Of a DNA stretch of 64,000 bases, positions 51,180-64,000 are shown in pieces (the first letter of the stretch is position 1; every line of letters starts with the position of its first letter). A model generated the notes under the pieces. That model made no database searches and was not told the DNA's origin. It was given only the letters and a program-made list of their open reading frames with translations. This DNA comes from Caldilineaceae bacterium (lineage in GTDB: Bacteria > Chloroflexota > Anaerolineae > Caldilineales > Caldilineaceae), in assembly GCA_020433455.1 (NCBI GenBank), contig JAGRCP010000072.1, forward strand, positions 1-64,000, written 5' to 3'. The position numbers were made by a program, and so were the translations under genes.

Positions 51180-54011
51180 TCACGCAGAGCGCCGTATATC
51201 GACCTCATGCCATTGATCGTGAATCCGCACTTTGAATGCCAATCGTCGCCAGCGGGAAGGAAGCTGAGGCGACGTGGTGATTCCATCTCCGTCCTGACGC
51301 AACCCGGCAAAACCGAAAACCAGCGCCTGCCACAAACCGCCGGATGACGCGATGTGCATACCGTCGCCTGCATTGCCGCGTACGTTAAAGATATCCGCCC
51401 GCGCTGCACGCATAAAGTGTTCGTAAGCAACTTCCGGTTGGCCCATGAGGCAGGCGACCCGCGCCATCATGGCTGGGCCTAAGGATGAGCCGTAGCTATG
51501 GTCAGTGCGCGGGTTGTAATACGCCCAATTCACCTGGAGTTCAGAGTGGCTGAACTCATCGGGCAGAAGCGCCATAAGCATGAGCACGTCGGGCTGTTTG
51601 AGCACCTGATGTTCATTTGCGCCGTCAATGCCCAGGATGACCTGCATGGATTCCGTGCGATCCTGAACCGCAGGCCAATCCACCTCTGCCAGATTGAAAA
51701 ACCCGGCAAACTGTTCGATCAGACCGCTTTCGGGGTCTTGCAGGATAAGCAGGTTATCGGCAATATCCGCCCAGCGGGCCAAACGCCCGTCGGTCAAATC
51801 CAGCCGAAGGCGCAGCGCATTCGCCTGGGCCGGAGCGTTTCGGGTCAGCCACGCCAAACAGTCGGCGGCAAAGCGCAACTGCCAGGCTGCCGTCGCGTTG
51901 GTATAGGCATTGTTATCTACATGTTCGTGATACTCATCCGGCCCGATGACGTCGGAGATGGAGTAGCATCCAGGCTGGGGCGTATCCGGCTCAGCGCGGC
52001 TCTCCCAGAAGAGTGCGCCCTCCAGCACAATCGCTACACCGGCCTCCATCATAAACTGATCGTCACCGGTGACCTTCCAATATTGACGGATGGCGTAGGC
52101 GATATCAGCCGTAATGTGCAGTTCGATATCGCCGCACCAGATCCGAATCAGCTCTTCCCCCTGGGGGCCCGGCACCCAGCGCGGCGTGACCTCATCACCG
52201 GTCTCCGCACTCTCCCAGGCGAACTGGGCCCCGGCGAAACCATTGGCCGCGGCTTTGCGTCGCGCGCCGTCAATGGTGCGCCGGCGATACATGAGCAGAT
52301 TGCGGGCAATGGTCGGCTGTACGTAGGTAAAGAAGGGGAGGACAAAAATCTCCGTATCCCAGAATGCATGCCCCCGATAGCCGAAACCGCTGAGGGATTT
52401 GGCGCCGATACTGACGCGATCGTCCGTGGCAGAGGCCGCAATGCGCAGTTGATACAGTGCATGGCGCACGGCTAGCTGGGCGTCATCATCGCCTTCGATC
52501 AGGACGTCGGCGGCCTGCCAGAATTTGCGCCAGGCGCTCTCGTTGGAATGCTCAATCGCGTCGAAGCCCATGCGCTTCATCTCCCCGACCTTCCGCTCCG
52601 CCGCGCCGACGGGATCGTCCGTATCCCGACTGGTGTAGACGCTGACCAGCTTATCCAACGTCAAGGTTGCACCGGCCGGAAGGCGCGTCGTGACGTCCCA
52701 GCCGGGTGCGCCGGGACAATCGGCGTAAGCGCCGGCAAGCTCTTTTCCGTTAACGCCGGCCGTTACGGTCATGGCCATGGCCAGACGCTTTCCGGTATGG
52801 CGGGTTATGCTCGTCAGGCAGACGGCATCGCCCGCGTTGCCTTGCTCCAGCTCTTGCCAGTGGAGCAGCCCTTCATTCTCCACATGACCATTGAGCCAAG
52901 GCCGGAGGCGTATCTCGGCCGCGCCCTCCAGCGCGGTGACCGTCACGCGCAGGACCAGGACATGGGGGTCGGCCAGGCTTGCGACACGCGTAAAGGTGAG
53001 TTCAACAGGCGTGCCGCCGGGCGCTCGCCAGTAAAGACGGCGCTCCACCCGGCCGCGCCGAAGATCAAGCCGCCGGGCATAGGCGCTGACTTCGCCTTGA
53101 TCCAGGCGGAACGACGCACCGTCAATCCGCAATTCCAGCGCCGTCCAGTCAAACGCATTGGCCAACTCGGTAAAAACGATGGGCGCATCATCCCATAGAC
53201 CATGGATCAGCGTCGCCTGGCGATCGCCGGGAAAGCCTTCTTCCAATGCGCCCCGGGTGCTCAGGTAACCATTGCCCGTTGTAAGCGCCGTCTCCATGTG
53301 ATGGGGAGAGGCTGCGTTGAAGGCAGCTTCATTCACATGCCATGTAGCCGCGGCCAGGAGACGCGCCAGTCCAACGCCGGCCAGATCGAATACAACCAAA
53401 TCCGCAGTCGCTAAGCGCTCGCTCGGCCCGATGCCCACCGCAGTCATACCCGCGGCGCGTGCGCCTTCGATACCCGAAGCGGCATCTTCCACAACAAGGC
53501 AGGCGGCAGGCGGCAAATTCAGGCGTTGGGCGGCAAGGAGGAAAAGATCGGGGCAGGGTTTGGGCCGACGATAGCCGGACGGGGCGTCATCTTCAGGGCC
53601 GGCGATGATAACAGCAAAGCGGCGGGTGATGCCCAGCCGGTCCAGCGCCGTCAACGCATTTTTGCTGGCCGAGACGATAGCGGCCTGCAAACCGGCCGCC
53701 TCGATTTCATCCAACAGCGCGGCCACGCCGGGCAGCAGATCGTCAGGCGAAACCTGCTGCAACAAGTCCTGATAGTAGCCGTTCTTGCGCGCCATCCACG
53801 CTTGCAGGGTCGCCTCATCCAGAACGCGCCCGTCCAGAATAATCTCCAAGGACGCGCGCCGGGAGACCCCGCGCAGCAGCTCATTGCGCTCCCGGTTGAA
53901 GGGGAGCCCTTCTTCATCGGCCAATCGTTGCCAGGCCAGATAATGATATTCGGCTGTATCAGTAATGACGCCATCCAAGTCGAAGAGGATGGCCTGTATG
54001 CGAGCTTGCAT
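51180..54011 (-). CDS. Bifunctional beta-phosphoglucomutase (HAD) - GH65 disaccharide phosphorylase
   Basis: 943 aa, a fusion. Residues ~1-225 are a beta-PGM-type HAD: nucleophile/acid FDLDGVITD (D11, D13), [16 protein letters not shown], and [23 protein letters not shown]. Residues ~230-943 are GH65: [21 protein letters not shown] at the start, [12 protein letters not shown], and [20 protein letters not shown] near residue 690 with the catalytic acid Glu in GPDEY. GH65 enzymes phosphorolyse alpha-disaccharides (maltose, trehalose, kojibiose, nigerose) to glucose and beta-glucose-1-phosphate; the HAD domain would turn that product into glucose-6-phosphate in the same polypeptide. Which disaccharide cannot be read from sequence. 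Confidence 0.9.
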
Positions 54012-54071: not shown

Positions 54072-55097
54072 CTATTGGCTGCGCAAGCTCGACCCGCGGA
54101 CGACGAGCTTAGGCGGCAGGATAATGCTCTCGGGAATGGTTCGCCCTTCGATAAGGGCAATCAGCCGCATGACGATTTCCCGGCCTATCTCATGCAGGGG
54201 CTGACGCAGGGACGTGAGCGGCGGGCTATAGTGCTGGATGCCGGGCGTGTCATCAAACCCGGTAACGCCGAAATCGGGGCCCACAAGCAGACCCGCACTT
54301 TGGGCGGCGCGCATGGCGCCGATGGCAAGCTGATCATCTACCGTTACCACTGCCGTCGGACGCTGGGGAGCAGGCAGGGAGAGCAAAGTTTTGGTGGCTT
54401 CTATACCGGCTTCCACATCACCCGGGAGTTGGATTACCCAATCCTGATTGATGGACAGGCCGGCTTCTTCCATGGCTTGAAAATAGCCGTTACGCCGCGC
54501 ATCACCCGTACGCGAGCGCCCGTCCCAGGCCAGCAGCGCAAGACGCGTATGCCCCTGCTCGATAAGGTGGCGGGTTGCCGCGGCTACGCCCGCCCGGCCA
54601 TCCACATCCACAAAGGGAAACTCCCAGTCGGCATTGGCCCGGCCAAAGGCGACGAAGGGAAAGTTGAGTTTTTGCAGCAACAACACACGCGGGTCGTCAT
54701 AGTCCATACTGGCAACAATAAAGCCGTCCACCCGTCCGGTACGCGCCAGGGTACGATACGTCTCGGTTTCATCATCCGTATTGTGCGTAGGAAAAAGCAG
54801 CAGGTGATAACCCGCTGCGTCCGCGGCTTCGATGGTGCTGGAGAGAAAGCTGTCCAGAATGGGATTGGGCTGCCAGGGCGGAGCGGGCGTCCAGGTATAG
54901 CCGATAAGACGCGAGGCCTGGGTGCGTAAATTGCGCCCGGCGGCATTGGTCCGATAGTCCAGATCTTCAACCGCTTGCCAGATCGCGCGCTCCGTCTCGG
55001 CGGAGACATTGGCCTTGCCGTTGAGCACCTTGGAAACGGTTTGATAACTCACGCCGCTTTTAGCCGCAACGTCTTTTAAGGTGGCCTTCTTGTCCAT
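54072..55097 (-). CDS. LacI-family repressor of the disaccharide operon
   Basis: 341 aa. HTH TLKDVAAKSGVSYQTVSKVLNGKANVSAETERAIWQAVEDLDYRTNAAGRNLRTQAS is intact at the N terminus (hinge helix included). The effector domain reads SRLIGYTW ... GRVDGFIVASMDYDDPRV ... PFVAFGRANADWEFPFVDVDGRAGVAAATRHLIEQGH ... DQLAIGAMRAAQSAGLLVGPDFGVTGFDDTPGIQHYSPPLTSLRQP. It is first in the operon, 60 bp before the phosphorylase gene, and its own promoter carries tandem CGAACGTTCG sites. Confidence 0.92.
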   Translation of the reverse strand: MDKKATLKDVAAKSGVSYQTVSKVLNGKANVSAETERAIWQAVEDLDYRTNAAGRNLRTQASRLIGYTWTPAPPWQPNPILDSFLSSTIEAADAAGYHLLLFPTHNTDDETETYRTLARTGRVDGFIVASMDYDDPRVLLLQKLNFPFVAFGRANADWEFPFVDVDGRAGVAAATRHLIEQGHTRLALLAWDGRSRTGDARRNGYFQAMEEAGLSINQDWVIQLPGDVEAGIEATKTLLSLPAPQRPTAVVTVDDQLAIGAMRAAQSAGLLVGPDFGVTGFDDTPGIQHYSPPLTSLRQPLHEIGREIVMRLIALIEGRTIPESIILPPKLVVRGSSLRSQ

Positions 55098-55269: not shown

Positions 55270-56652
55270 CTACGCGTATTCCGGCAACATCTCCCCATGT
55301 TCATCAATGAGGCGGTCCACCAACTGCCAGATCTGGTCGATGTCCAGTTCGGCCGCGGTGTGGGGATCCAGCATGGCCGCGTGATAGATGTGCTCGCGCT
55401 TCCCTGTGAGCGCGGCCTCCACCGTCAGGCGCTGGACGTTGATGTTAGTCTGCATGAGCGCGGCCAGATGCACGGGCAATTCGCCGACATGGGTGGGCTG
55501 AATGCCGTTTTTGTCCACAAGGCAGGGCACTTCTACGCAGCAATCCTGGGGCAGGTTATCGATGAGGCCCCGGTTGATTACGTTGCCGTAGATGACCTGG
55601 GGATCGCCGGTTTCCATGGCATAGATAATTTGGGAACCGTATTCCATGCTGCGCTTCAGAGTGAGCAGACGGTTCACGATGCGGTCCATGTCCCGGACGC
55701 TGCCGTCCATGGGCACGTGCTCCTCATCGCCGTTTTGGGCCAAATGGAAGCGGGTATTCTCATCCTCAAAACGACGCCGCATGGCTTCCCAGGCGTCGAT
55801 CTGGAACTCACAGCGGGTGATGTACTCGTCCAGCGGAATGTTGAACTCCTCCAGCAGGTCCGGCCGATCCCGCTTGATAAACCACGGAACGTACTCGCTG
55901 AAGTGCTCGCTGGACTCGGTGACGAAGTAGCCCAGCCGGCGGAACATTTCGTAACGCACCCGATTCCAGTCGGGCACGCGTCCCTCGTCCAATACCCGGC
56001 GGATTTCAGGATAGAGATCCCGGCCATCCCGCTCAAAGGTGAGGTAGAAGGCCATGTGATTGATGCCGGCACAGAGATAGTTGATCTCTTCATAGGGCAC
56101 GCCGATGTCGCCGGCCAGTTGGTGGGCCGTGCTCTGGACGCTGTGGCAAAGTCCTACCGTATTGATGGACGTGGCCCGATCAATGGCCCAGCAGTTCATC
56201 GCCATAGGGTTGACGTACTGGAGCAGCGTCGCGTCGGGGCACAGTTCCTCCATATCCCAGCAGATGTCAAGCAGCACGGGAATGGTGCGCAATCCCCGCA
56301 TAATGCCGCCGATGCCCAGAGTATCGGCAATGGTCTGGCGCAGACCGAATTCTTTGGGCACGTCAAAGTCCACCACCGTGCTGGGGCGATAGCCGCCCAC
56401 CTGGATCATGGTGATGGCGTAGTCGCTGCCTTCCAGCGCCCGCCGTCGATCCAGGCTGCTCTCGATGGTCGGCTGCGCGCCCATGGCATCGGCTACTTTG
56501 CGGGCCACGATTTCCGACGTACGCAACCGTTCTTCATCAATATCGTGAAGGCTGATGGTTGCATTCTGCAACTCAGGATAGCTGAGGATGTCGTTGAGTA
56601 AATTTTTTGCAAAGACGGTGCTGCCTGCACCGATAAAAGTAATTTTCGTCAT
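55270..56652 (-). CDS. GH4-family alpha-glycosidase (MelA/AglA-like)
   Basis: 460 aa; AAGGA precedes the ATG. N-terminal NAD-binding KITFIGAGSTVFAKNLL (GAGS 8-11), LHDIDEERL (acidic end of beta2), YVNPMAMNCWA (Asn ~147), Mn2+ site Cys in CHS (169-171) and His in GINHM (196-200). GH4 enzymes hydrolyse alpha- or beta-glycosides by a redox-elimination mechanism needing NAD+ and Mn2+. The CHS pattern and length favour the alpha-galactosidase/alpha-glucosidase/galacturonidase branch. Last gene of the leftward alpha-glycoside operon. Confidence 0.9.
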   Translation of the reverse strand: MTKITFIGAGSTVFAKNLLNDILSYPELQNATISLHDIDEERLRTSEIVARKVADAMGAQPTIESSLDRRRALEGSDYAITMIQVGGYRPSTVVDFDVPKEFGLRQTIADTLGIGGIMRGLRTIPVLLDICWDMEELCPDATLLQYVNPMAMNCWAIDRATSINTVGLCHSVQSTAHQLAGDIGVPYEEINYLCAGINHMAFYLTFERDGRDLYPEIRRVLDEGRVPDWNRVRYEMFRRLGYFVTESSEHFSEYVPWFIKRDRPDLLEEFNIPLDEYITRCEFQIDAWEAMRRRFEDENTRFHLAQNGDEEHVPMDGSVRDMDRIVNRLLTLKRSMEYGSQIIYAMETGDPQVIYGNVINRGLIDNLPQDCCVEVPCLVDKNGIQPTHVGELPVHLAALMQTNINVQRLTVEAALTGKREHIYHAAMLDPHTAAELDIDQIWQLVDRLIDEHGEMLPEYA

Positions 56653-57672: not shown

Positions 57673-59367
57673 TTAGTTTAACCGCGTGACGATCAGGCGC
57701 GCGCCCGGCTCAATAGGCGGGATCTCACTAACGGCGCCGTCAGGCCAGCGAACGGACAGACCGATAACTTCCGCACCATCGACCAGACCGAAGTGGATGC
57801 GGGATGGATCGCCGGAGAGATAACCGCCGGCCGTGCGGACCATACGCTTCTGAGCGCCTGCTGTCGTGTACAGCGTAACCTCAGCGCCGATACCGACACG
57901 ATTATCAACCTTCGGCCACTGTAAGTCAATGAGCAACGCGCGCCCGGAGATGCACAGGCGATTCTCGAAGAGCTGGGCCGCGGTGTTGAGATTGTTGACG
58001 ACGATATCCAAATCGCCGTCCCGATCCAGGTCGGCCATGCTCATCCCGCGGCCGCTGCGCAGCGAGTTGAGCCGCCATTCCGGCGCGGAGATAAAATCGC
58101 CGTCCGCCGTCTGACGCAACGCCTGGTTCTCCTCTATCAGCTCGCCGCCGGGCAGATAATCCAGCAGGTCTTCGGCGATCATGCCATTGACCACATAGAG
58201 GTCCAGGCGACCGTCATTATCCAGATCGCCAAACTTGCCGGACCAACTCCATCCCGTCGCATCAATCCCCTCTGCGTATGCCCGGTTGCGAAAAGCGCCG
58301 TTGCCGCCGGGCTTGAGCAGCACGTTTTCAGACTTCTGGGCATCATCGCTGCGCCGCGTTTCGTACCCGTCCTGCATGAGGGGGGCCCACGCCGCCAGGA
58401 CCTTGGGCGCGCGTTGATACGGCTTCATGTCCGTCGCAAAGAGTTCCCAATCGCCGTCGTTGTCGCTATCGACCGGGTCGAAGCCCATGGTGCTATGGGT
58501 GGTGACGGGAAAGGGTTCCTGCGCCTGCCACGCGCCGCCTGCCTGCTGCACGAAAGCATAATCCGGCAGATCGAAATCATTGCCCACAAGGATATCCAGC
58601 CGACCGTCCCGGTTGATATCCATTGCGGTAATGGCCAAAGCCTGGGCTTCATCCGCCAGGACGCGCCCCGTGAAGCGACCATCCTCCTGTTGGTAGTAGA
58701 CTACGCCGGATCGCGCATCCGTCAGGAATTGGTTGCTCTCGGTGAGCATGCGCTCGGCGTCATAAGAGCCCGTCACCAGGTCCAGATCGCCGTCGCCGTC
58801 CCAATCCGCCCAATACAGGGCATACGCCGCGTGGGTCAGTCCCGATAGCGGTGCAAATTGGAAGTCGCGTCCGCCCTGATTGGCCAAACGGACTACGCCG
58901 CTGCCCGTACTGAACGTGATATCCGGCAGACCGTCGCCTTCCACATCCACGATTGCCACGGCCCGCGCGCGGCGCACCTGCGGCAATGTTGTACGCGAAA
59001 AGACCAGGTTGCCTTCGTTCCACAGGATAATCGCCGGTCCGCTCAGATCGGCCAGGACGATCTCCTCGTAGCCGTCGCCGTCCAGATCGCCGATTGCCAG
59101 CCCGGAGCCGTTGCTGTCGAAGAGGCGCGTCACGTCACCCGGCGCACGGGCGGCGTGGGGCAGATCGTGGGCAATGAAGCGATTCTGGCATGCAGCCGAA
59201 GCGGTAAGCGGCTGGGTTGCGATTTCCACCGCGGCAACAGGCCGCTCGGACTCGGCCGCATCGCTCTCCTGCGCGGCTGTGATGGTCGCACAGGCGCTGC
59301 ACAGGACCACGAACAGCACGACCAGGATCCAGGTTGACGAGCGGCGAAAACACGGGATGACGTGCAT
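57673..59367 (-). CDS. CRTAC1-type secreted protein: FG-GAP/VCBS propeller with ASPIC/UnbV domain
   Basis: 564 aa. N-terminal signal anchor (STWILVVLFVVLCSACATI), perhaps a lipoprotein at Cys26. Seven calcium-loop motifs of DxDxDGxxD type are visible (GDLDGDGYEE, VDVEGDGLPD, ADWDGDGDLD, MDINRDGRLD, VDSDNDGDWE, GDLDNDGRLD, ADLDRDGDLD), consistent with a seven-bladed integrin-like propeller. The C terminus is ASPIC/UnbV-like (VGIGAEVTLYTTAGAQKRMVRTAGGYLSGDPSRIHFGL ... VRWPDGAVSEIPPIEPG). Extracytoplasmic ligand or partner binding is likely. No clear ribosome site at ATG 59367. Confidence 0.85.
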   Translation of the reverse strand: MHVIPCFRRSSTWILVVLFVVLCSACATITAAQESDAAESERPVAAVEIATQPLTASAACQNRFIAHDLPHAARAPGDVTRLFDSNGSGLAIGDLDGDGYEEIVLADLSGPAIILWNEGNLVFSRTTLPQVRRARAVAIVDVEGDGLPDITFSTGSGVVRLANQGGRDFQFAPLSGLTHAAYALYWADWDGDGDLDLVTGSYDAERMLTESNQFLTDARSGVVYYQQEDGRFTGRVLADEAQALAITAMDINRDGRLDILVGNDFDLPDYAFVQQAGGAWQAQEPFPVTTHSTMGFDPVDSDNDGDWELFATDMKPYQRAPKVLAAWAPLMQDGYETRRSDDAQKSENVLLKPGGNGAFRNRAYAEGIDATGWSWSGKFGDLDNDGRLDLYVVNGMIAEDLLDYLPGGELIEENQALRQTADGDFISAPEWRLNSLRSGRGMSMADLDRDGDLDIVVNNLNTAAQLFENRLCISGRALLIDLQWPKVDNRVGIGAEVTLYTTAGAQKRMVRTAGGYLSGDPSRIHFGLVDGAEVIGLSVRWPDGAVSEIPPIEPGARLIVTRLN

Positions 59368-59513: not shown

Positions 59514-60932
59514 TTACTTAAACAACGCATTCACTTCAGCGTTCGCCGTGGACAGGGCGGACTCTGCATCGCTCTGACCCAGGAGAATGCTCTGAACGGC
59601 CGGATTCATGATCGCAACCACCTCAGAGGCGTGGTCCGTCACCGGGAAGAGGAAGGTGCCGCCTTCCTCCAGCGCCTGTTCGGTAAAGGCCGATACGTCC
59701 AGCCCCCGCTCCTCATAGGCCGCCAGGGCGTTATCCACGCCGGACTGCTGCGCCGGGAAGACCACGCCGTAGCTGCCGACCGTGTCGGCGCATTCCTGGG
59801 AAGCAAGATACTTCACCCACTGCCAAGCGGCCTCTGTGTTCTCCGAGCCGACCCAGATGGAGTCGGCCAAGCCGTTAAACATGCTCTTGCGGCCTTCAGG
59901 ACCTTCGGGCAGGCGGGCAAAGCCGACGGTGAAGGGAGACTGGCTGGTAAGCTGACCAATCATCCACGAACCGTTTGCGTGGAGAGCGCCCTGTCCGCTC
60001 TGGAAAGCGGCCGAGCCGCCCAGGCTGGAGACCTGCTCTTCGGGCATGATGAAGCCGGCAGCCATCTGGTCAGCCACCCACTGGAGCGTCGCAGCGAAGC
60101 GCGGATCATCGTAGTAGTACTTGGTGTCATAGAGGCCGTCGTTATAGGTCCAGCCCGTGGTCTCCGCCAGCCAGCTCCACTGAGTCTGACCGTAGGCCCC
60201 GCCGTTGGCATCCATGATGAAGCCGTACTGGGTAATGTTGCTCTTGTCGAAATCAGCGCTCAGGCCGTTGTTGCCGTTGGCGTCGACGGTCAGCTGGGCG
60301 AGCATCTCCCCAAAGGAACCGCCGTCTTCCGGGTTCCAGGTCAGGCTGTTGAGATCATCAGCCGTTACGCCGGCAGCATCCAGCGCTTCCTGGTTATAGG
60401 CAATGGCGACGGTATCCCAATCTTTGGGCAGGCCGAAGCGTGCGCCATCCCGGGCCCAGAGATCGGCCAGATCGCCAATGTACGCATCCAGACTTACGCC
60501 GTCGCGCTCTGCATAGGGCTGGATGTCCACCAACTGGCCCTTTGCGGCAAATTCAGGGTATTTGGCCAGGTGATCGGTAAAGACGTCGGGCGCGGTGCCG
60601 GCGACCATGCCCGTCTGCACGTTACTCCAGTAATCGTCCCAACCGGACTGGGTGATTTCAATCGTGATGCTGGGATTAGCGGCCATGAAGTCATCAGCGC
60701 ACTTCTGATAGGCAGGCAGTTGGAGCGAGTCCCACAGCCAGTAGGTGACCGTGCCGGACGCTTCTGCCGCGTCCGGGGCTGCACCGCTGTCGGATGAAGC
60801 GGCATCACTGCCGGCCGCGGCCGTATCGCTGCTGCTGCTGTCGGCCGGCGCGCTGGAGTTGCCGCCGCAGGCTGCAAGGACCATGCTCAGAATCAGCAAG
60901 ATGGTCAGGGGAAGTAGACGAACGTTCTTCAT
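59514..60932 (-). CDS. Extracellular sugar-binding lipoprotein (CUT1, alpha-glycoside operon)
   Basis: 472 aa; CCGGAGGAAACA leads the ATG. Lipobox MVLAACGGN (Cys22) and a long Ser/Asp/Ala linker to ~60. Family 1 features: TVTYWLWDSLQLPAYQKCADDFMAANPSITIEI, GTAPDVFTDHLAKYPEFAAKGQLVDI, FGLPKDWDTVAIAYNQEALDAAGVTADDLNSLTW, GQGALHANGSWMIGQL and AADSIW-like ADSIWVGSENTEAAWQWVKYLASQECAD. Partner of the MalG and MalF genes upstream. A possible CGAACGTTC site within codons 2-5 is probably chance. Confidence 0.9.
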   Translation of the reverse strand: MKNVRLLPLTILLILSMVLAACGGNSSAPADSSSSDTAAAGSDAASSDSGAAPDAAEASGTVTYWLWDSLQLPAYQKCADDFMAANPSITIEITQSGWDDYWSNVQTGMVAGTAPDVFTDHLAKYPEFAAKGQLVDIQPYAERDGVSLDAYIGDLADLWARDGARFGLPKDWDTVAIAYNQEALDAAGVTADDLNSLTWNPEDGGSFGEMLAQLTVDANGNNGLSADFDKSNITQYGFIMDANGGAYGQTQWSWLAETTGWTYNDGLYDTKYYYDDPRFAATLQWVADQMAAGFIMPEEQVSSLGGSAAFQSGQGALHANGSWMIGQLTSQSPFTVGFARLPEGPEGRKSMFNGLADSIWVGSENTEAAWQWVKYLASQECADTVGSYGVVFPAQQSGVDNALAAYEERGLDVSAFTEQALEEGGTFLFPVTDHASEVVAIMNPAVQSILLGQSDAESALSTANAEVNALFK

Positions 60933-61080: not shown

Positions 61081-61992
61081 TTATTTAAAGCCGGTAAATT
61101 GGATGGAATCCAGAATTTTACGGCCCAGCAGCATAAAGATGATGAAGGTCGGTATGATGGCCAGGGTCGTACCCGCCATGAGGCCCGTCCAGTCGGGCGC
61201 GCCTTGGGGGGTTTGGGTGCGGAAAATGCCCAGCGCGACGGTCAGCACCCGGACCCGCTCATCGCTGCCCACAATCAGGGGCCAGAGGTAATTGTTCCAC
61301 GTGTTGATCATGGTCACGATGGCCAGCGTAGTGAGCGCGGGCATGGTGATGGGGACGACCACGCGGATAAAGGATGTCCAGATGCTGGCTCCGTCAATGC
61401 GGGCGGCTTCTTCCACTTCCCGATTGACGCCCAGGAAGAATTGACGCAGGAAGAAGACGGCGAAAGGCGTCATGAGGAGCGTGGGCGCAACAATGCCCGC
61501 ATAGGTGTTGAGCAGCTTAAATTGGCGTACGAGAATGAAGTTCGGGATGGTCGTCACGATGGCCGGTACCATGAGCGCAGCAATATAGAGGCCGAAAATC
61601 AGCTCGCGTCCGGGAAAACGCAGACGAGCGAACGCATAGGCCGCCATGGCGCAGGAAAGCACCTGAAAGAAGACCACGACGGCCGTCACGATAATGGAAT
61701 TCATGAGGGCGCGGCCGAAATTGATGGACTGGCCCGAGCCGCCCATGGCCACTGCCGTTTCCGTATCCACCAGGCCCAGCACGCGCCGGAAGTGGATCAG
61801 CGTGGGATCAACCGGCAAGAGCGAACCGGTGTCGCGAAAGAGAGATTGGGGGCCGGTTAACGCGGTCCGCACCATCCACCAAAAGGGAAAAAGGGTAATA
61901 ATCAGGAGGAGCGCCAGTCCGATCCAGGCAAGCGTCTTTCCCCAGGGGATGTTGCTTCCCGAACGTTTTACGCCCTGCACTTGGGTTGTCAT
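61081..61992 (-). CDS. MalG-type ABC sugar permease (alpha-glycoside operon)
   Basis: 303 aa; AAAGGAAAAACGACTC precedes the ATG. Six TMs beginning TLAWIGLALLLIITLFPFWWMVRTAL. The EAA loop is [31 protein letters not shown], and the ending PTFIIFMLLGRKILDSIQFTGFK is the usual MalG C terminus. Order malF-malG-binding protein on the minus strand. Confidence 0.9.
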   Translation of the reverse strand: MTTQVQGVKRSGSNIPWGKTLAWIGLALLLIITLFPFWWMVRTALTGPQSLFRDTGSLLPVDPTLIHFRRVLGLVDTETAVAMGGSGQSINFGRALMNSIIVTAVVVFFQVLSCAMAAYAFARLRFPGRELIFGLYIAALMVPAIVTTIPNFILVRQFKLLNTYAGIVAPTLLMTPFAVFFLRQFFLGVNREVEEAARIDGASIWTSFIRVVVPITMPALTTLAIVTMINTWNNYLWPLIVGSDERVRVLTVALGIFRTQTPQGAPDWTGLMAGTTLAIIPTFIIFMLLGRKILDSIQFTGFK

Positions 61993-62096: not shown

Positions 62097-63032
62097 TTAC
62101 ATATCCGACTCTCCGGCCCGCATAAGACGCATCTGAGCCAGACTAATGAAGACAAGAATCGCAAAGAGAATAATGGAAATGGTGGTGGAATAGCCCATGT
62201 TATAACGCGTGAAGGCCTGCTCGTAGATGTACCAATTCATCACCTTGGTGGCGTTAATCGGTCCACCCTTGGTGGTAATGGCGATGGTGTCAAAAATCTG
62301 GAACGAGCCGATGACCGACGTGACCAGCACGAAGACCAGCACCGGGCGCAGCAGGGGAATGGTGATTCGCCAGAACATCTGATTTTCTGACGCGCCGTCA
62401 ATGGATGCCGCTTCATAAACGGAGCCGGGAATCGACTGCAAACCGGCAAAAATAAGCAGGGCGGTATAGCCCACGTACTGCCAAATGTTGATCATGGCGA
62501 TGGTGGGCATGGCGTATTGGGGCAGACCCAAAAAGGCGATCATGGGCAGCCCCAGGCTCTTCAGGGCAACGTTGACGATGCCGATGTTGGGATCCAGCAG
62601 CCAGAGCCAGAGGAGACCGACCACCACAGGCGGCAGCAGCCAGGGCAGGATAATCAGACCGCGCACGAGCATGGACTTGGTCAGGCGCGACATGAGAACG
62701 GCAATGACAACAGCCAAAATTGTCTGCAAAGGGATGTTCAGCACTACGTAATAGAGCGTGACCTTGAGCGCATTCCAGAACTCTGCGTCCTGAAAAAGGC
62801 GGGAATAGTTTTGCAGACCGATAAAGCTGGCGTCGGTCAGCAAATCCCAATCGGTCATGCTAATCCAAACGCCGCGCAAAGCCGGCATAGCATAGAAGAG
62901 GATAAAACCGAGCAGGCTGGGCAAAATAAAAAAGAGCGCAGTAACGGATTCTTCGGTTATAAGTCGTCTGCGACCGGGAGCGGGCGGGGCGGGCAATGCT
63001 GTACCGGTCGGCAATTGGCTGGATGCGGTCAT
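62097..63032 (-). CDS. MalF-type ABC sugar permease (alpha-glycoside operon)
   Basis: 311 aa; GAGGAGATT precedes the ATG. TMs from TALFFILPSLLGFILFYAMPALRGVWISM. The EAA loop is IPGSVYEAASIDGASENQMFWRITIPLLRPVLVFVLV, and the tail STTISIILFAILVFISLAQMRLM. First importer gene after the 353-bp regulatory gap downstream of the kinase-AraC gene. Confidence 0.9.
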   Translation of the reverse strand: MTASSQLPTGTALPAPPAPGRRRLITEESVTALFFILPSLLGFILFYAMPALRGVWISMTDWDLLTDASFIGLQNYSRLFQDAEFWNALKVTLYYVVLNIPLQTILAVVIAVLMSRLTKSMLVRGLIILPWLLPPVVVGLLWLWLLDPNIGIVNVALKSLGLPMIAFLGLPQYAMPTIAMINIWQYVGYTALLIFAGLQSIPGSVYEAASIDGASENQMFWRITIPLLRPVLVFVLVTSVIGSFQIFDTIAITTKGGPINATKVMNWYIYEQAFTRYNMGYSTTISIILFAILVFISLAQMRLMRAGESDM

Positions 63033-63385
63033 AATCTCCTCGCTAGTACATTACGGCGTAAATACCGCGGCGGAAACCAGGGCCTTCTACCTCGGGCAGG
63101 AACTGTCGGCTTATTTCCGGCGGGATTTACTAGGTTTGGATGATGCGATGGTTTAAGGTGAGCTGGTTCACCGGGCGGCGCAATCTCGTATTCGGGTAAT
63201 AATATTGGGAACGGCTACAGCATAGCGGCAAGCGGGGCGGGCGTCTTGCACAAAAGAATCCTATAATTGCACAATACGACCGTTTTGGCGTAAACAATGC
63301 ATTTTTTATCTGTTTGGGGTAGGAACGCGGCCCTTGCGGTCTCTCGTTCCGCATGCGCCATAAAAGCGCATGGAATCGGAACGCG
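63033..63385. promoter_or_regulatory. Regulatory gap upstream of malF
   Basis: 353 bp between the kinase-AraC gene stop (63386) and malF start. It holds the TTGCACAA direct repeat (63246-63274), a TATTAT box read leftward near 63206-63213 and a partial palindrome GGTGA-GCTGGT-TCACC at 63157-63172. The promoter of the leftward operon is expected here. Confidence 0.5.
63246..63274. promoter_or_regulatory. AraC-type operator: direct repeat with 21-bp period
   Basis: TTGCACAA at 63246-63253 and again at 63267-63274, exactly two helical turns apart. This is the usual spacing for the two half-sites of an AraC-family dimer. It lies upstream of malF and just downstream of an AraC-domain gene. Confidence 0.6.
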
Positions 63386-64000
63386 TCAGGTTGAGCCGGT
63401 TTCGATGCGGAAAGCGTGGGGTGATTTGCCGCTTTCCCGGCGGAAGATGCGGCAAAAATAGGCCGGGCTGTTGAAGCCCACAGCCGTGGCGATATCGGTA
63501 ACGCTGGTCTCGCTGGTGCGCAGCAGATGCTGGGCTTTGGCCACCCGGTAGCGGTTCAGATATTGCCAGGGAGTAAGCCCGACCTCTTCCCGAAAGGTCC
63601 GCGCCACGTGATTAGGACTGAAGCCTACCGCATCGGCCAGCTGGGCGCGGCTGATGTTATGATCAAAGTGGGCGTGGATATAGTCGGTCGTCGCGCGCAC
63701 CAGCGGCCCGCTGGTGCGCGTCAGTTCATCCAGCAGGGCAGCCAAAGGTTGGTCGGTAGGGTGCAGAGAGCGAATCGGCGACTCGGGGCGTTGTTCTACG
63801 GGGAGCGGCCAGTAGAGATGACAGGTCGTGCCATAGCCCAGCAAACTGTCAATTTTTAGCCGACCGCCATGCAGGTGCACCAGTTCCCGGGTCAGGCTCA
63901 ACCCCAGGCCAATGCCCTCCTGGCTCCGGTCCAGGGGCGAAACGGTGGTTTCCGCCGTCACAAACGCCTCGAAAATATGATTGAGCAAATCGGCCGGAAT
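63386..64000 (-). CDS. C-terminal part of histidine kinase-AraC fusion regulator (runs off the right edge)
   Basis: The frame is open to base 64000 (reading IPADLLNHIFEAF upstream of the internal ATG at 63988), so the gene continues beyond the window. The visible 204 residues begin in an HATPase domain (F-box IFEAF, G2 box EGIGLGLSLTRELVHLHGGRL) and pass through a short linker to a full AraC/XylS double HTH (LADAVGFSPNHVARTFREEVGLTPWQYLNRYRVAKAQHLL ... VTDIATAVGFNSPAYFCRIFRRESGKSPHAFR). No receiver domain stands between them. It likely senses the alpha-glycoside or a related signal and activates the malF operon. Confidence 0.85.
   Translation of the reverse strand: MPADLLNHIFEAFVTAETTVSPLDRSQEGIGLGLSLTRELVHLHGGRLKIDSLLGYGTTCHLYWPLPVEQRPESPIRSLHPTDQPLAALLDELTRTSGPLVRATTDYIHAHFDHNISRAQLADAVGFSPNHVARTFREEVGLTPWQYLNRYRVAKAQHLLRTSETSVTDIATAVGFNSPAYFCRIFRRESGKSPHAFRIETGST

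Follow-up and report, generated by a model that had tools for sequence, protein, structure and literature searches.

The described proteins that most resemble the regulator reported here are the hybrid two-component systems (HTCSs) of Bacteroides, in which a sugar sensor, a histidine kinase core, and an AraC domain share one chain that serves sugar-use genes. One account of HTCSs (PMC11253607) describes a membrane sensor and a receiver that keeps the AraC domain off DNA until the receiver is phosphorylated. E. coli XylR is a second close system, which joins a cytoplasmic sugar sensor of the periplasmic-binding-protein-like type to an AraC output, also in one chain. XylR is directly controlled by xylose. 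A third group is formed by the pseudo-histidine kinases, such as DivL and RetS, which act by contact on other kinases; the kinase fold is kept and phosphotransfer is lost in some members.

We analyzed by computation a regulator gene at the end of a 64,000-nucleotide stretch of DNA from a Caldilineaceae bacterium (contig JAGRCP010000072.1, positions 1 to 64,000; hereafter, the window). As in the HTCSs, the kinase core of the window protein carries the H, N, and G boxes, but the receiver phospho-aspartate and the membrane-spanning periplasmic sensor of the HTCSs are absent. As in XylR, a soluble sugar sensor and an AraC output are combined, and phmmer matched XylR structures 4fe4 and 4fe7 over the AraC end of the protein; XylR, however, has neither a GAF domain nor a kinase core between its sensor and its DNA-binding part. 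The presence of HisKA and HATPase_c also sets the window protein apart from XylR-like one-component regulators, which are defined by having no phosphotransfer domains. DivL and RetS appeared among its structure matches, but the kinase core of the window protein forms one chain with its DNA-binding output. We found no description of this architecture in the open-licence full texts searched, which is weak evidence of its absence from print. The features within the window are listed in the table.

Table. Features of the regulator locus and its putative target genes (window coordinates)
Feature	Position	Strand	Basis or remark
Regulator, C-terminal 204 residues: end of HATPase_c, 53-residue linker, AraC double helix-turn-helix	63386..64000	-	open frame and Pfam
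Predicted operator: direct half-sites TATTGTGCAATT and TTTTGTGCAAGA, 21 bp apart	63244..63276	-	half-site matrix
Predicted promoter: -35 AAGACG 63247-63242, -10 TATGCT 63224-63219, spacer 17	63219..63247	-	
malF-like ABC permease, first gene of putative target operon	62097..63032	-	named from sequence
malG-like ABC permease	61081..61992	-	named from sequence
Extracellular sugar-binding lipoprotein, malE-like	59514..60932	-	named from sequence
FG-GAP/UnbV_ASPIC protein	57673..59367	-	family search
GH4 family glycosidase	55270..56652	-	operon transcript membership uncertain
LacI-type protein in same cluster	54072-55097		named from sequence
HAD hydrolase-GH65 fusion, glycoside phosphorylase type	51180..54011	-	operon transcript membership uncertain

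The regulator gene crosses the window edge, and its upstream end lies at G000:C157:65947 on the corresponding contig of its own genome (138,714 bases). The frame is open from a GTG that would give 896 residues and from an ATG that gives 853 residues beginning MTQTLRIGLH; the ATG is the likelier start, and the gene so defined is L001:3387-5948 on the minus strand (G000:C157:63386-65947). Pfam recognized Peripla_BP_4, GAF, HisKA, HATPase_c (to residue 759), and HTH_18 (from residue 813) in the 896-residue frame, the last with an E value of 4.6e-23 and 81.7 bits against a cut-off of 33.6, placing an AraC/XylS double helix-turn-helix at the C terminus. Numbered on the 853-residue product, the domains are an RbsB-like sugar-binding domain (about 3-325), GAF (335-463), HisKA (486-556, with H495 within NVSHELRTP), HATPase_c (604-716), a 53-residue linker (717-769), and the AraC double helix-turn-helix (770-847). 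All the kinase motifs are intact: H495, the N box, D645, the F box, and the G boxes. No Response_reg domain was detected in the 896-residue frame at E values up to 1. A reading of the sequence alone had described an HATPase domain joined to AraC by a linker of about 60 residues with no receiver between them, which the full protein bears out, and had left room for a sensor and a receiver at the N terminus, which lay beyond the sequence in view. That terminus consists of the sugar-binding domain and GAF, ruling out a receiver there.

The highest hydropathy over 19 residues was 1.29, under the level of a membrane helix, and no membrane segment was found, so that ligand-binding and DNA-binding domains share one soluble chain. 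An AlphaFold2 model of the regulator had a mean pLDDT of 83.6 and a pTM of 0.54, and the placement of the domains in it is therefore unreliable. Between HATPase and AraC the model showed a low-confidence linker of coil and helix and no receiver fold, and residues 446-512 formed a long helix. In Foldseek comparisons the first domain resembled ribose- and glucose/galactose-binding proteins (TM-score of about 0.8 on the target) and the kinase core matched histidine kinases.

A five-row alignment (A1) scanned against 84,980 species genomes found 34 loci, almost all of them in Chloroflexota, with a few metagenome-assembled genomes labeled otherwise that are possibly misassigned; because the scan was seeded by two peptide patterns, diverged members were missed. 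A search across 396 genomes of the class yielded 25 matches, from 23 of them. Four of the scan loci were not aligned (L041 and L061, with broken frames; L064 and L065, with the kinase core only), and L059, also with a broken frame, was aligned but excluded from counts and trees. Among the class-wide matches, L084-L090, L094, L095, L096, L102, L107, and L069 were judged to be duplicates (L094 and L096 by the length of the contig, the others by frame length, position, or genome) and were not added again, and L101, whose longest frame is only 635 residues, was excluded. The final set contained 42 rows.

These rows fall into two forms. Thirty carry tandem receiver modules between HATPase and AraC, as the sequence-only reading expected of hybrid sugar sensors, and 12, including the window protein, carry none. 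The stretch between the two domains (the columns of residues 716-765) is 17-53 residues long in the receiver-less rows and 278-322 in 29 of the receiver-bearing rows; the remaining row, L099, exceeds the 120-residue dividing line. Pfam found Response_reg in none of the 12 receiver-less rows and in 20 of 21 receiver-bearing rows scanned together, the exception being L054. The receiver-bearing proteins, which have the order sugar-binding domain, GAF, kinase, pseudo-receiver, receiver, AraC, share the order of the other domains with the window protein and are 37-45% identical to it (21 aligned whole), but have about 280 extra residues comprising two receiver-like modules, of which the first is degenerate and the second has an intact aspartate in 29 of 30 rows. 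The short linker is common to 12 rows from different genomes, which rules out an assembly or frameshift artifact that deleted a receiver from the window protein. On a tree of the sugar-binding and GAF domains, the absence of receivers required at least two changes, and a single receiver-less clade was not rejected (AU test, p 0.505), a result consistent with a single origin of the receiver-less form. The midpoint root, which is not secure, placed a receiver-bearing group deepest and suggests loss of the receivers rather than their gain.

Every one of the 29 rows whose receiver aspartate is intact kept the phospho-histidine, and 5 of the 13 rows lacking such an aspartate lost it (Fisher p = 0.0015, which is optimistic because the rows are related). 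Divided by architecture, the losses number 4 of 12 receiver-less rows, with Gln in L005, L058, and L093 and Glu in L043, and 1 of 30 receiver-bearing rows (L054). The five losses were separate changes on the tree of the sugar-binding and GAF domains. In L054 (L054:4127-7399) the kinase histidine (replaced by Gln), the receiver aspartate, and the receiver lysine are all gone, and the protein resembles a whole relay that decayed without deletion. The regulator of L058, which adjoins malF as the window regulator does, lacks the entire ATPase domain; it lies on a low-coverage contig and has no recognizable operator in its gap. In a clade of four, the constraint on the ATPase domain was relaxed (47.7%, vs 65.1% in matched receiver-bearing pairs). 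No such relaxation was seen in the window protein, whose ATPase conservation relative to its own other domains was 15.1, the lowest receiver-bearing value being 14.2.

Autophosphorylation of H495, or ATP binding alone, could in principle be a switch that positions the AraC domains and needs no receiver. The histidine is kept in 8 of the 12 receiver-less rows, the window protein among them, and N618, D645, and G680 are kept in 11 of the 12, as such a switch would predict; however, four receiver-less rows lost the histidine in events that are separate on the tree, and L058 has dispensed with the ATPase domain altogether, and we regard this explanation as unlikely. The conserved ATPase domain and intact motifs nevertheless suggest that the window protein still makes use of ATP binding or of kinase activity, and residual use of ATP, autophosphorylation, or phosphotransfer in trans may occur in it. 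Because its motifs are intact and its ATPase domain is not relaxed, the family trend argues about what the output needs and is no proof that the kinase is dead.

A small, stand-alone receiver gene adjoins the regulator in 22 of the 34 loci scanned and was also found in G127 and G204, two further receiver-less members; in all, 8 of the 12 receiver-less members have it. AlphaFold2 gave its product a receiver fold (pLDDT 90). Of 21 aligned rows, 19 have Glu at the phospho-aspartate position and 2 have Asp. Glu-type pseudo-receivers with an LEP motif include L033:8925-9332, L038:9404-9781, L063:9539-9916, and L072:9524-9907, among others. In having a receiver fold with Glu, and rarely Asp, at the phosphorylation site, the partner is like the aspartate-less receivers (ALRs), which are reported to be enriched in Chloroflexi (PMC4395418). 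It differs in being encoded by a small gene of its own next to a kinase-AraC regulator, and it had no good match in the window genome (best 52 bits, vs 132-160 in G013, G005, and G012). It likewise had no good match in G003 (best 55 bits) or G065 (67 bits), and none at an E value of 1e-16 in the genome of L043. The absence of the partner at some loci says little because the sequence ends near the gene. Among receiver-less members, the histidine was lost in three of the four without the partner and in one of the eight with it (p = 0.067), so a tie between the two losses is suggestive only. A function for this pseudo-receiver family was not found in the literature searched.

The notion that the next gene supplies the missing receiver thus applies to 8 of the 12 receiver-less members, mostly as a Glu-type pseudo-receiver, and is ruled out for the window protein. 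An active kinase might instead phosphorylate a response regulator in trans, with the AraC domain serving as a tether to the promoter or as a second output. The window protein has all the catalytic motifs and a well-conserved ATPase domain, and its genome encodes ordinary receiver proteins (10 matches at 37-52 bits); an unlinked cognate regulator may exist. However, the nearby cognate response regulator of a classical histidine kinase was not found: no partner-type receiver was seen at L001, G000 gave no good match to one, and the adjacent 353-bp gap holds no receiver gene. Furthermore, relatives of the same architecture lost the histidine, and the prevailing Glu in the partner family should prevent it from accepting phosphate at that site. 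We therefore consider phosphorylation in trans to be quite improbable.

The sequence-only reading had drawn attention to a 21-bp direct repeat upstream of malF. The 8-mer TTGCACAA indeed occurs at 63246 and 63267 with a period of exactly 21. Considered alone the repeat was not significant (at spacing 21, 10 of 14 positions match, with p = 0.076 for this gap), and significance came from comparison with relatives. When 35 spacings were compared in 24 gaps (a 25th was too short), 21 came first or tied for first in 14. We built a half-site matrix from eight receiver-bearing loci only (consensus TATTGTCCAAGA) and applied it to 16 other gaps, in 12 of which, including that of the window, 21 scored highest among 22 spacings; the test failed in the gaps of L058, L055, L057, and L060, and scores were low in L072 and L108. 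The best 21-bp pair in the whole window, on both strands, was the predicted operator, which scored 21.8; the next scored 10.3, and the best score in the window at other spacings was 16.9. Where the site is seen, receiver-bearing members have the same half-site and 21-bp spacing, and in G013 the spacing is also 21 bp but the word differs (GTTTCTAATTGTCC / GTTTCTAATCGTGC).

Promoter geometry was compared in 17 of the 24 gaps, leaving out L034, L045, L108, and the site-less L055, L057, L058, and L060. In these 17 gaps the proximal half-site runs into AAGACA-like letters at the -35 position, and a -10-like hexamer follows 16-18 bp past the -35; the distance is exactly 17 bp in 15 of the 17 gaps (p 0.0005 by shuffling). 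The predicted -35 element of the window also overlaps the proximal half-site. Such geometry is typical of AraC-type activators that touch RNA polymerase, and a direct repeat of about 21 bp beside a -35 box matches, on sequence evidence, what is expected of an AraC/XylS operator. Because the half-site is conserved beside relatives, as are its 21-bp period and the promoter geometry, the repeat is very likely the operator of the window regulator and the malF operon its target, as had been proposed. Across the genome the operator has a single exact occurrence, the window site itself, and one match with two mismatches; matches were no more frequent than in a reversed control, and gave no sign of a wider regulon. 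That the repeat belongs to another regulator is highly improbable, for although a LacI-like gene lies in the cluster and a similar one beside the G013 regulator (both named from sequence), the site is a direct 21-bp repeat and not an inverted one, the half-site occurs beside receiver-bearing and receiver-less members alike, and 21 bp outscores each of 19 alternative spacings in 21 of 32 loci (13 of 24 without the eight training loci).

The malF-like gene lies 211 bp downstream of the predicted operator. Behind the G013 repeat there are also transporter genes, the one in the position of the window malF being BPD_transp_1, followed by an FG-GAP/UnbV gene after malE and by a GH36 melibiase. In two genera, represented by the window and by L072:13411-15264, an FG-GAP/UnbV_ASPIC protein is encoded immediately after the sugar transporter genes. 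From the enzymes of the clusters (GH4 and GH65 here, GH36 in G013), an alpha-galactoside or alpha-glucoside is a reasonable guess for the ligand. Beyond the window edge, L001:9554-11152 (G000:C157:69553-71151) encodes a fusion of an ABC-transporter ATPase with a HisKA_3-HATPase histidine kinase and adjoins two permease-like genes and a substrate-binding-protein-like gene (named from sequence). A dihydrodipicolinate-synthase-like gene near the regulator (L001:7339-8229, named from sequence), which may serve another pathway, has counterparts beside the regulator in L003/L032 and in L033 (DHDPS by Pfam).

The relatives lose the relay yet keep both the sugar sensor and the DNA-binding part, along with the DNA target, and the signal therefore probably passes by a direct change of shape. 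Of the two routes first proposed for a protein of this kind, allosteric transfer thus gains from the loss of the phospho-histidine in receiver-less relatives, although the kinase motifs of the window protein are intact, and transfer through an N-terminal receiver falls away. We consider it fairly probable that the regulator is a former hybrid two-component regulator that has turned into an intramolecular, XylR-like cytoplasmic activator of the adjacent sugar ABC-importer operon. Its ancestor would have had the order sugar-binding domain, GAF, HisKA, HATPase, pseudo-receiver, receiver, AraC, from which the two receiver modules were lost. We infer that an imported sugar or a derivative binds and closes the RbsB-like domain inside the cell, and that the GAF domain and the long helix would pass the change on to the AraC domains by way of the kinase core's dimerization helices. 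The two AraC parts of a dimer may then be brought into register on the direct half-sites, the proximal of which overlaps the -35 box, and would there recruit RNA polymerase and so activate the operon. This output step would proceed without phosphotransfer to a receiver. As there is no receiver, the "off" state would have to come from the kinase core, the sensor, or, where present, the partner pseudo-receiver.

For the family as a whole, we offer more tentatively the possibility of a phosphorelay that is becoming a one-component system. The receivers may have been deleted once, and the Glu-type pseudo-receiver may have been kept as a nonphosphorylated allosteric partner that was later lost in some lines, including that of the window; the kinase core would be left as a mechanical, ATP-optional transmission from the sugar sensor to the AraC activator, with the operator largely unchanged. 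The regulator stands between the HTCSs and XylR, and its interest lies in the graded series of its relatives. Receiver-bearing, receiver-less, and histidine-less members on much the same operator form a natural series, which lets one ask how a kinase core signals without phosphotransfer and how a two-component system becomes a one-component system; with soluble parts and a short operator, the question is directly testable.
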